Source: Tubiluchus corallicola (taxonomy: Eukaryota > Priapulida > Priapulimorpha > Priapulimorphida > Tubiluchidae). From it: 64,000 bases of DNA. Below are positions 6,731 through 57,663 of the stretch, piece after piece. Location of the stretch: contig JAQGDQ010000010.1 of assembly GCA_030141605.1 (NCBI GenBank), positions 869,501 through 933,500 on the forward strand, read 5' to 3'. The notes beneath the pieces are model-generated. The model worked only from the letters and a program-made list of their open reading frames with translations, had not been told where the DNA came from and did no database searches. Both the position numbers and the translations under genes were made by a program. The stretch's first letter is position 1; each line of letters begins with the position of its first letter.

Positions 6731-9700
6731 TTATTTTTGTCCTGTGGTGATTCGTGATTTCAAAAAGTTGGCAATCCTCTCAACGCTTTCAAAGCTCTTA
6801 ATTTCAAAGATGTTTCTTTCTTCTGAAGCCATACACTCCAACTCTTCTCTTTGCACGTTACCCGTAATTCCGAAAGCAAAAATTTCAATTCCTAAAAGGG
6901 AGAATAGAGAGTTTATTACAACGAAACGCACGACACGATAGCATGTTAATAAGTTAAAACTAAATCGTGAATAATGTTAGCTTCCGCATCTGGCACTTCT
7001 CCAGCAAAATGAGTAACGTCAGGATAATTCACTAGGAAGTTAGCAAGTTAAAATAAACGTGTAAAGGTCTAAATCATGCCGTAGTATATGTGTCTACTTG
7101 GCGTAACCATGGCTCGTTCCTTTTTCCGTCGGAAAATGTAATTACTTCGACTTTTAACCTCAGACACGTTTTAACGTATCTAAACTCACCGTTAGCTTTT
7201 ACTTCAGCAGCTTTGTCACAAGTTCTTTTCATGTTATTCGAGAACCCGTCAGTTATCACCAAGATGTACTTTTTAGATATATCTCTTCCGTCATTCTTTA
7301 TTATATCCAAACCAAATTGGAGGCCAACGTCCGTGGCAGTTGATCCCTTCTCTGTACAAAAAATAATAATTTACCGTAAAAAAATCAAGAGATCGTTTGC
7401 AAAGTGTGACGAGATTTAGTTTGTTTTATCCGCGGAAATGCAGTTATTACAAAAGGCTCCTGTCGGATTCAGCTTAACGAATAAACCGTTTGACTTGTTC
7501 CATATTTACAATTTTGTGTCTACTTGAAGGTTTCAAACACCGCACTATCTCTGGCTCCCGAAACCAGACTGAAAACAAAATTGGTGTTGAGACAAACTGG
7601 TAACATTTTTTTAAATTGAAATAAGGTCTTCCAATGTTTGTCTGTTGATGCATGGAAAGTGCAAGGAAGCAATTTATCCTATTTACTTAATTCATTTTAA
7701 AGTACAGAATTCTTAAAAAATGATGACTATTAGTGTAACATTACTATATTATTGATTGCCCTAAGACAAAAACATTGGATGAAAATAACGACCATTCATA
7801 AACTGGTACTTCTTTAGACGTTTATAATGTCATCAACGTTTAGATCGCTTTTATCTTTTCATATTTGATTTTAATTTATTTTCATCTTAATTTAAGCCTG
7901 GTTGCCACAAAAGGTGATCATCTTACTGTAGACAATGGCTTCCATTTCTGCCAGGATATCGTTCAGTCTGTTTCTTTCTGCCAGCTGGTCCCTAATGTAA
8001 TTGAACTCCACGCCAGATTTGCTCCTCGTAGAATACGTCACGGCTGCCACTCTGATAGCAAATGGGCCAAATGCATTGTCCAAATCCAAAAATGACATGA
8101 TTGCCTTAGAATGACAAAAAGCCATCAGTTTTATAGCCAAGCATTTTTAATGAACATTTTAAAGCTACCATTAAACTGGCAATAAAGGCCATGTTTTATC
8201 CCATTTTTTCTTGCATATTTTCTTACAAAACAGCGGAAGCTACTTACATTTTATCTGAGATTAGTATAGCATTGGCGCTGGCCTCTTCAACTTTTTAAGT
8301 AGTATCTTTGTAATGTGAAAATGCAATCATTAGCTTACTGTAAGGTTATTTATTTAGTTTAACCACAAGATCGATTGACCTTAAAATGTCAACAATGATA
8401 TTATTGGTCTTATCAATATAACGGTGTCTTAAAGCTTAACGAAATAGTCTTATGATATAAAATAAAATAGATGTCAACAGCCTTATCAGCAGGCTTTCAA
8501 GCAATCATATAATGGCGGTTCTTTCTTTTACTAAAATAAAACAAGTCGATCATTTCAAATACGCGAAGAGCATTTTTTATTATTTTGGAAAAAAAATTGT
8601 TGAAGATTACTTACATTTAAGAAATTTATGCCAATAACATAGTTATCAGCACCAATGCTGCCACTGCTGTCTATGACTAGGACCAGATCCACGGGAACAC
8701 CAAGACCAATGTTCAGAGTGCCACTCTCAATGAAAGGAGTAAGGACGGGATGTGGCTCGTTGATACGGTCAATTACATTCTGCTTGATTTCGATGGCAAT
8801 TCCAACATCTTCGTCAGATATGTCGAAGGACACAGGTAGTGCAGCAACTGTAGTCGTTGGCAGTGGAGTCGTGGACTCTAATCGTGGATTCAAACAAGTT
8901 GCTGAAATAGACAGAGCGATTAGGTTCCCATTTTGGTATACTCAATGTTTATTATTATGCATCGGCAATAATATAGATTACGTTCCTAATAGATAGATTT
9001 AGATGTCATTACTGCCCAGAAGTGCATTGTAGAATTATAAGACTAAATAAAAAAAACTCAGAATCTCCAGTTATGCAGCTGAGTGAAACACTTCCACCTG
9101 GCCTGTCAGAAATATTCACGTTAGTCGTTTATTTCAAGAGCACCTTGAAGATCTTCAACTGTATAGCGAATCTCCTAAGTCAATGAGTTTCATATGGTAG
9201 GTTAACACATGATCTAGTGATTATTATTTTTATGTGTCGAAGTCAAAGAATTGTAGTGTGAGTTTGTTGAACTGTCATTGATATAATTAAGACATTAAAA
9301 AAACTGACTTGCCTTGAAAACCTGAACTTAGAAAAACTGCTTGAATTTCTCTTATAACAATAATAAATTAAGGCATTTCAGTGTTGCTCAGTAATAAAAT
9401 GATTGGTTTTCTGTTACACAATATACTTATAAGTTAATTGGTGTCAACTTTACTTTGGTAAACTTGTCTTTGGTAAAAGTTAGCACACATGCCCAAGTAG
9501 CTTTAATAGGAATTTACCGGCAGTCACAGCACGCGTGAGCATATTGGCAGCCCTATCCGTGATACGCGGTTGTGCATCATAGTAGTCATCGATGGTCGGA
9601 CCAATTCCCATACTAAACGAATCTTGTCGTCCATCGTATCTACGCAGGATGAATAGAAGCCCATCATTTCCAGACAGTCTGACCTAATACGATAATGAAC

Positions 9701-12700
9701 ACATGTAAAAAGATTTCAAAGTTGTCAGGTTTTTGTTTCGTTTTTTTTTACAAAAATATAAACTTGAAACGAATTAAACATTTTATTAATTTACAACAGG
9801 AGCTAGTATTTATTTATTATTTCTTTCGCAAAAGAGCATCACAATTCACACCGTTGCAATGGTGGATTAATTATACAACATGTACATTAATAAACTTGAT
9901 TAGTACTGTTTTTGTTGAATGTTATACATTTAGCTTAATACTACAAAATTTAGTTAATTAATTAACAAGTATGGTAACAGTTCTTTTACTTCATCATCCG
10001 AAAAGCCTGTAATTCACCATTACGTGTGCAGAAATGCTCATAATACAGAAAGTCAATTATAAAATGACAAATTGTATTATCATTTACGAAAGACAGGCTT
10101 CCATAATCTCATTGTCTTGCATATATTTTATATTGCTGTACTGTCGCATAAATGGCTATTGCCACAGTCGCCATCAACTAAACCACTGTTATCGCCATTA
10201 AGAAATGACCACAGCGGCTACAGAAACAGCAGTATTGGCAGTATTAACTAGTAGTATCAACATAAATCCAATGATTACAGCAACCCTGGGAAGAAAACTA
10301 TACTTACTGACTCAACATTTACAGGACTCCGAGACGCACTGGCTTCTTGTAGATGGCGCTGTGATTCAGTTACTGCGCATTCTGCTTCTGCATATCCTGG
10401 ACAAGCGTCTACAAATGCGCAATTGCCATTAAATTATAGCTTGCTTATGCTGCCAAACAAGTAAACAACTACATAGTCAAACAAAAGCTTAAATGGTTAC
10501 GTAATGTGACGTCAGAATAAAAAAAATCAACAAAAACTCACATTAAACTTACCCGGATCAAAAATGACTCTCACTGGAGCATTTCCGCTGCAGAGACCTA
10601 TGCAGTCAGGGTGGTAATAAAACCAATTGCCTGTAATTTGAAAAAATACATGTAAGTGGTTGTTTTTAAGTTTAAAAAACGAGAACAAAAGCCGTTAGAA
10701 AACTAGATTCGTACTATCTTCTTGAAAACTTGCATTCCCAACCTTATATGGCCATGCGCGGTTAAATGAATTTCTACATTTTTGCACCGGGCAGTTTAAA
10801 AACTCTAATTTTGCAATTATTTGAGGTTAAAACGAATTTATTTTAACAAAATATTACTAGCGCAAAGTTTGGAATACAAAGTTGTGGAATTGTTTTTGGT
10901 GCAGTGAAGAAACGGGAAAGATAGCTATCATGACGACGAATCTAGAAATTCGAACGAACCACGTTTCGACACCATTTGGAATTACAGCAGACTTGTTAAT
11001 GTTATTTGGCGATGTTGAGAGACGAACCCGCAACAAAAAAAGACATTGATGTAGTTCTTGGTAAACTTGATAATATTTTGTGAAAATTTAATTCACTGGA
11101 GGAAAGAGTTGAAAAATTAAGTACAGATACGGATCAAAAATTTGAAAATAGAACGCATCGAAACAACCTAATTTTTCATGGGATCGACTATGTGGAGCCC
11201 GAGGAAACCCCGGAAGCCAGTGAAGCTATGTTGTTATACAAACTTTGCAAAGAGTTGAATTTACCATAAGAAATTAAATTTGAGAGGGTGCATAGATTAA
11301 ACAAGTCTGCAGCACCAAGAAAACCTGCCTCCATTATTGCAGGTTATTCTCTGACTTTAACAACAAAAGGAAGAATTTTTTCGCATTACATAACAAAGAG
11401 AAGGCATCTTAGTTTAACAGCTCAAGAGGACTTCTCCCCCAGAACAAGGACGCCACGTAAGCATCTACTGGAACAACTGCTCGAGGCCAGAAAGGGAGGT
11501 AAACTAGCGCTGCAATAAACTGGTTGTAGAGAATAACGTGTTTATGTATAATCACAACTTGGGAGAAATCCAGATTGTGCAAGCGCCTCTGCGGAAGCTT
11601 AACAGGAGCAAGCCTATGGCTAGCAATGAAACCAATAAAGATCACCTGTCTGGAGCAGGACCAGTCCTGCGCTCATTGGTTAATAAGACTAACTAGATAC
11701 AGGTCAAAGGGGTCAGCAGAAACTTACATTTGCTACGTGGAACATTGATGGCCTTGGAACATTATGCGAGAAAACTAAAAATGAAGAATTTGTTAAAACA
11801 ATAAACCAGTTTGACTTTAGTGGACTCGTTGAGACATCGCTACCTGCACAAGTGTCGTTTGATGTAGATGGATACGACGTTTACACGTTCGGACACGAAA
11901 GGACTAAAGTTAAAGGCCGAATGTCAGGCGGTTTAGCTGTAATTGTACGTTCTGAACTGAATCAATATTTTAAAACTGTCAAATGTACACATCCTAATAT
12001 AGTTTGGTTTAAATTTGCACGTACAGTATTGGTAGAAAATGTTTTATTTTGTCTTGTTTGCAATCCACCAAAGAAGCGTGGGGACGTTGAAAATCCTGTA
12101 CTAGATTTACTGTACAGTGAATTGATAGAATTAACGCAAGATAATAATAATTTTGTTCTAATGGGTGATTTTAATAGTAGAATAGCAGAATTACCTGATT
12201 TTGTTTTCAATGAAGAAGTAACAGGTGAAAAGTCATACACAACTGTACCATACCCAGAATTTTATCAAAATGATAATGCTGAAGTTTTGTCAGGTAGAAT
12301 AAATGAAGATAAAGTAATCAATACACAAGGCAGATAGCTTATTGAATTGTGTCAAGAAACCCGTTTGCGACATACTACCATCCTACTGCTAAATCAACAA
12401 TTGATTACATAATTGTGTCAAACAGTTTACTTCAAAATTTTACTGAATTGTATGTGGCACCTCCACAAGAGTTATCCCACCACGTGTTCATTCTCCGAAA
12501 TGAAAGCTATTTTTTCTGATACAATGGATCAGGAAGTGCAAATTTATTTAAATCAATTTGAAAGCTGTTCTGCAGTTTATCAGAATGTCACATAACAGTA
12601 AAGACCAAATGACTGAAATCGCAAGCAAAAGTCAGTTTGACTCCTCCAAGCCATGGAAGGACAACGAATGTAAAAAAAATACAGAGAAAGTTAAGAAATT

Positions 12701-57441: not shown

Positions 57442-57546
57442 CATAACTATCATTATAATTACAAGTATTACTATTTTAAATGGTAAAATTGAAAAACTTT
57501 ATAGTGATAATTAAGGTAGTTAATGGTTTTTGATTAGGCCACCTAC

Positions 57547-57663
57547 CTGTTGTATTTTGCCACCAACCCTGTGCTCTGACTTGCAACCTTTCTAACAAGA
57601 TGTGCTACACTATAAGGGCCTGCAATAAGCTGCGCTCCCAATTTATTAGCCTTTACTTTTATA
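57547..57663 (-). promoter_or_regulatory. VWA-A core promoter and leader exon
   Basis: TATAAAAG lies at 57663-57656, directly preceded by GGCGCCG. Transcription would start about 30 nt downstream, near 57628. The non-coding leader exon then runs to a donor CAG|GTAGGT, ending at 57547, and is spliced over a 461-nt intron to the acceptor TTTGCAG whose exon begins with G-ATG at 57085. The start site is inferred from TATA spacing. Confidence 0.72.

Follow-up and report, generated by a model that had tools for sequence, protein, structure and literature searches.

A tandem array of four VWA-domain genes with one 12-coding-exon plan, probably encoding secreted proteins, in Tubiluchus corallicola

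The window analyzed here, a 64-kb stretch of the Tubiluchus corallicola genome (positions 869501-933500 of contig C1461, in an assembly of 343,548,820 bases and 2,344 contigs), contains three paralogous minus-strand genes, designated A, B, and C, each encoding a protein with a von Willebrand factor type A (VWA) domain. With a fourth copy, D, situated just beyond the left edge of the window, they form an array of four adjacent same-strand paralogues, in the minus-strand order C, B, A, D, with exon phases shared by all four. The encoded proteins are probably secreted matrix or adhesive proteins whose VWA domains would bind partners in a metal-dependent manner. The copies look intact, and the array is an unremarkable case of a gene family growing locally by duplication; for the N-terminal region, Pfam and PDB gave no family and no convincing match. 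The array leaves general knowledge of VWA proteins unchanged. It does offer a clean example of growth of a probably secreted gene family, in which the copies share a single exon plan, purifying selection is seen, and a conversion-like tract can be traced across introns.

Genes A, B, and C were identified by comparing six-frame pieces and scoring splice sites, and exon ends were picked by homology, phase, and splice score, giving the following models (window coordinates):

Gene A, 20661-6731, minus strand: ATG to stop, 606 residues, Pfam VWA match at E 4.1e-26
Gene A exons, minus strand: 20661-20559, 19067-18949, 18260-18197, 16456-16253, 15161-14964, 10630-10553, 10408-10308, 9683-9518, 8901-8615, 8104-7927, 7351-7190, 6891-6731
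Gene B, 38897-28934, minus strand: ATG to stop, 621 residues, Pfam VWA match at E 4.2e-26
Gene B exons, minus strand: 38897-38768, 35999-35860, 35253-35187, 34332-34120, 33592-33395, 33264-33169, 32690-32593, 32175-31995, 31459-31206, 30549-30372, 29571-29413, 29085-28934
Gene C, 57084-43013, minus strand: ATG to stop, 610 residues, Pfam VWA match at E 2.1e-29
Gene C exons, minus strand: 57084-56970, 52490-52351, 51728-51662, 50616-50404, 48690-48493, 47877-47785, 47121-47024, 46097-45920, 45423-45185, 44944-44767, 43887-43729, 43167-43013

Each gene has 12 coding exons; all 33 introns are GT-AG, and none of the three frames contains an internal stop, bearing out an original prediction, made from this window, of three same-strand VWA genes with 12 coding exons and open frames. 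As that prediction also stated, the intron phases (1,0,1,1,1,1,0,1,0,1,1) and the lengths of exon 5 (198 nucleotides) and exon 10 (178 nucleotides) are identical in all three. Its description of the plan as fully conserved holds for phases and exon count; the remaining exon lengths differ (e.g., 287, 254, and 239 nucleotides for exon 9 of A, B, and C), and it is the exon plan, not each exon length, that is conserved. Such a plan is the expected product of tandem duplication. The predicted span, 6731 to 57663, begins correctly at the last base of the gene A stop codon; its other end falls on a TATA-like box upstream of gene C and is not coding. No remnant exons outside genes A, B, and C were detected in the window by tblastn at E 0.05.

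Examination of 60 kb on each side of the window revealed gene D, whose ATG (position 869376 of the contig) falls 125 bases outside the left edge of the window. Its open frame of 607 residues has 11 of 11 introns GT-AG, with phases and 198- and 178-nucleotide exons as in the other copies, so that across the four genes 44 of 44 introns are GT-AG and internal stops are absent from all models. The predicted local expansion thus stands as a set of tandem paralogues, with four copies in place of three. Whole-length protein identity is 75% for A/D, 65% for B/C, and 50% for A/C (42-50% for the four pairs other than A/D and B/C); the values for B/C and A/C exclude chance resemblance. When the assembly was searched with the N-terminal region of C (418 residues, E up to 1), 23 places were found, a lower bound because only the best candidates were scored; 22 of these were on C1461, and the single off-contig match (E 0.51) is taken as chance. 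As far as this search reaches, the family consists of one array of four, derived by local duplication from a single ancestor with 12 coding exons.

The profile search proposed as a check on the original prediction found one VWA domain (PF00092) per protein, with scores of 92.7 (A), 92.7 (B), 103.4 (C), and 100 bits (D) over the Pfam cut-off of 23.8. VWA domains with a metal ion-dependent adhesion site (MIDAS) bind their partners through a divalent cation. The MIDAS residues, namely DxSxS, the threonine of G[GS]TxT, and TDG, are present in all four proteins, as had been predicted for A, B, and C; the particular threonine and aspartate are those that we take to belong to the site. The domain lies at the very C-terminus, and all four proteins end after it. 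The preceding region of approximately 400 residues matched no Pfam family in A-D, and its three matches in PDB (best E 0.55) were treated as chance; 79 stretches in bacterial and archaeal contigs and 25 in viral contigs fit a pattern, and none was confirmed as a relative at E 1e-3. Each of the 16 cysteines in the N-terminal region of A recurs in B and C despite identities there of 43% (A/B) and 42% (A/C), compared with 14 of 33 glycines and 11 of 22 prolines, a pattern that speaks for a structure held by disulfides. Across the full-length alignment, 18 columns are cysteine in all four proteins. Each protein opens with a hydrophobic stretch followed by R-A/S-Q, likely a signal peptide, and the mature forms of A, B, and C would be acidic proteins of about 64-66 kDa with a calculated pI of 4.6-5.1.

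Each product would consist of a signal peptide, an N-terminal region of roughly 400 residues that is rich in disulfides and in which 16 cysteines never vary, and a single VWA domain at the C-terminus. Through its complete MIDAS, that domain may bind a collagen-like or other matrix protein via a divalent cation, while the N-terminal region may anchor or multimerize the protein in a secreted matrix.

For A/D, the synonymous divergence (dS) is 0.55 and the nonsynonymous divergence (dN) 0.14, giving a dN/dS of 0.26 (bootstrap range 0.20-0.34), which shows that purifying selection prevails in this pair when averaged over sites; in B/C, A/B, and B/D, silent sites have reached saturation. In addition, two tracts resemble gene conversion:

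34120-34332, minus strand: gene B exon 4, containing a conversion-like tract shared with gene C exon 4
50404-50616, minus strand: gene C exon 4, partner of the B tract
9503-10537, minus strand: gene A, from within intron 6 to shortly beyond exon 8, 89.4% identical to D over 1,061 columns, introns included

In exon 4, 22 of 31 four-fold sites agree between B and C, versus 48 of 132 across the remaining exons (Fisher p 0.0006, to be read in light of exon 4 having been singled out after looking at 12 exons). Runs of B=C identity there were reached in 4, 0, and 0 of 5,000 shuffles of all polymorphic sites, and in 204, 3, and 0 of 5,000 shuffles restricted to codons for equal residues (allowing 0, 1, and 2 mismatches, respectively). 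A DNA search of the genome with exon 4 of C returned two matches, itself and B at 84%. Besides the long A/D tract, the ten other A/D matching blocks are about exon-sized, with 71-85% identity.

Genes A, B, and C each start at CAG/GATG (the slash marks the junction), a word that occurs exactly three times on that strand of the window, and gene D starts at TAG/GATG. For each of A, B, and C, the 1.2 kb upstream contains a single pair in which a TATAAA[AT] word is followed, 70-160 nucleotides downstream, by a strong donor, delimiting the following candidate elements:

21491-21592, minus strand: gene A, TATA-like box at 21592 and probable non-coding first exon with donor at 21491
39539-39625, minus strand: gene B, TATA-like box at 39625 and probable non-coding first exon with donor at 39539
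57547-57663, minus strand: gene C, TATA-like box at 57663 and probable non-coding first exon with donor at 57547

Among 1,000 randomized copies of each upstream region, 62 (A), 23 (B), and 73 (C) held at least one such pair. A TATA-like box alone means little, since single TATAAA[AT] words are common (within 4.5 kb upstream, 6 for A, 3 for B, and 3 for C). At least genes A, B, and C thus probably begin with a non-coding exon, separated by a 5′-untranslated-region intron from the exon that opens with G/ATG, although the upstream regions of the genes share little sequence. Spliced-leader trans-splicing could also explain AG/GATG at all four starts, and is judged less likely because A, B, and C carry an upstream donor.

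In PDB, the best matches of the VWA domain were extracellular, namely proximal thread matrix protein 1 (PTMP1) of the mussel byssus and collagen VI, followed by parasite MIC2; complement factor B and integrin I domains matched more weakly. PTMP1, which shares an extracellular VWA with the cluster proteins, differs from them in having two such domains, and gave no match to their N-terminal region. Membership in the PTMP1 type was rejected, because its top whole-sequence score sums two VWA matches of 44-45 bits each and the tree described below separates it. Collagen VI likewise has an extracellular VWA that bears a MIDAS, and a single domain of its alpha 3 chain scores 52.5 bits; unlike VWA collagens, the cluster proteins showed no collagen triple helix or EGF match in Pfam. 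A second comparison is with the Pif/BMSP proteins of molluscan shell, VWA proteins with known tandem gene duplicates (PMC10543319), of which the PifS1 subfamily resembles the cluster in that a long insertion separates its VWA from the signal peptide (PMC11291548). The chitin-binding domain CBM_14, located after the VWA, occurs in 38 of 50 Pif/BMSP proteins (PMC11291548); it was matched in neither A, B, and C up to E 1 nor D up to E 0.1, and the cluster also lacks a laminin-G match. Pif/BMSP membership was accordingly rejected, given the lack of a CBM_14 match in A-D and proteins that stop after the VWA.

Elsewhere in the genome, the best VWA matches were six intronless genes on C1844, C1436, C1702, C1931, and C2112 (L043, L045-L049), with 36-39% identity. 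Like the cluster genes, they combine a signal peptide-like start (by eye), an unrelated N-terminal region, and a C-terminal VWA; in contrast to them, the VWA lies in one open frame and the N-terminal part is low-complexity and Q/P-rich. Their neighbor in the tree is a spliced gene on C1156, and they may descend from a retrocopy. Two spliced VWA genes, on C2218 (L061) and C1156, have VWA introns at places matching those of the cluster, with phases 0, 1, 1, except that the second junction is shifted by a few codons; for the C1156 gene the last exon was not found, and the third junction rests on the donor alone. The C2218 gene combines cluster-like phases with a degenerate MIDAS (DESRN in place of DxSxS, and no TDG). 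Since two further VWA genes share these phases, the portion of the exon plan that covers the VWA probably predates the cluster, whose special component would be the N-terminal portion. In a 15-row VWA tree, also among the proposed checks, the four cluster genes group together (88/91), and the VWAs of this genome separate from PTMP1 and a collagen VI domain (96/95, subject to a long-branch warning).

A secreted matrix or adhesive role is proposed by analogy with PTMP1, Pif, and the VWA proteins of nacre: PTMP1 binds collagens (PMC4754843), shell proteins are pulled down by the Pif VWA (PMC11291548), and VWA proteins are present in nacre (PMC5597905). Secretion and a place in the extracellular matrix are plausible in view of the hydrophobic start, the cysteine content, and the presence of a VWA. 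Several points weigh on the other side. Gene models and function are read from DNA sequence, and the signal peptide was called by eye; the role given to the N-terminal region is a guess, since Pfam offers no family for it and PDB nothing better than E 0.55. In a scan of A, B, and C, the pattern used picked up no N-glycosylation sequon, and the Pfam scan of A-D gave none of the collagen-like, chitin-binding, or EGF matches that would fix a matrix role. For gene D, a slightly wider rule applied to 1.8 kb of upstream sequence yielded one TATAAA with no accompanying donor. Among papers searched, peptide strings of the proteins matched none, and none was found that combines VWA domain, gene conversion, tandem duplication, secreted, and invertebrate, which says little.

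A special case of this matrix or adhesive role, possible though appreciably less secure than the general one, is that the proteins serve as structural components of a secretion that hardens or adheres, such as a shell, tube, or byssus, and so resemble shell VWA proteins or PTMP1. The leading PDB match to PTMP1 agrees with this, as does a Tyr-rich, probably secreted protein encoded on the same strand at 61984-61151, and molluscs have many VWA shell proteins, of which RNA interference against six disturbed pearl oyster nacre (PMC5597905). Yet the per-domain score of PTMP1 is below that of collagen VI alpha 3, the tree separates the genome VWAs from both (with the long-branch warning noted above), the chitin-binding domain usual in Pif/BMSP was not matched, and an adjoining Tyr-rich gene proves no common role. 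Published work on limpet shell and tubeworm tubes offered no link.

More tentatively still, the 16-cysteine N-terminal region may be a lineage-specific extracellular fold, confined to this locus and joined to a more ancient VWA from which it took its exon plan; the four copies would then be parts of a secreted material peculiar to the lineage, with gene conversion maintaining their similarity. If so, the proteins would represent a new architecture among extracellular VWA proteins.

It is rather unlikely that the proteins are instead soluble in body fluid, for example as carriers or immune proteins that bind ligands through the VWA. The weaker matches to complement factor B and integrin I domains are compatible with such a role, and immune families often contain tandem arrays that undergo gene conversion; against this, the Pfam scan of A-D gave no protease, lectin, or complement domain match, and A/D shows purifying selection as an average, which would allow diversifying selection at single sites. 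That one or more copies are silent or decaying is very improbable: some splice sites score low on the rough matrices used (e.g., the exon 3 donor of A and the exon 4, 9, and 11 acceptors of C) and no TATA-plus-donor pair was found for D, but the intact frames and splice sites, the MIDAS and cysteine columns kept in all four, and the A/D dN/dS support the original view of the copies as functional.

Other features were noted in and around the array. The Tyr-rich protein is encoded by a single-coding-exon gene (61151-61984, minus strand) and has 277 residues, a signal-like start, and repeats like YEPSYEPKY. Its C-terminal part (approximately residues 104-265) matched at least 35 other places in the genome at E 1.2e-5 or better, with 140 of 371 candidates scored and some places perhaps assembly duplicates. 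The N-terminal parts differ in the three relatives read; of two members compared with Pfam, one gave a PT disordered repeat under the cut-off (E 0.21) and the other nothing. Open frames resembling pieces of the endonuclease and reverse transcriptase of long interspersed nuclear elements were recognized by eye on the plus strand at 1462-1863 and at 11693-12337, the latter inside intron 5 of gene A, and a TTAGGG-like interstitial array occupies 35477-35612 in intron 2 of gene B. Elsewhere in the assembly (G000), bacterial-looking stretches on contigs C1 and C2294 (L051-L053), with dense intronless frames around ferritin (by eye), are probably a contaminant or symbiont.

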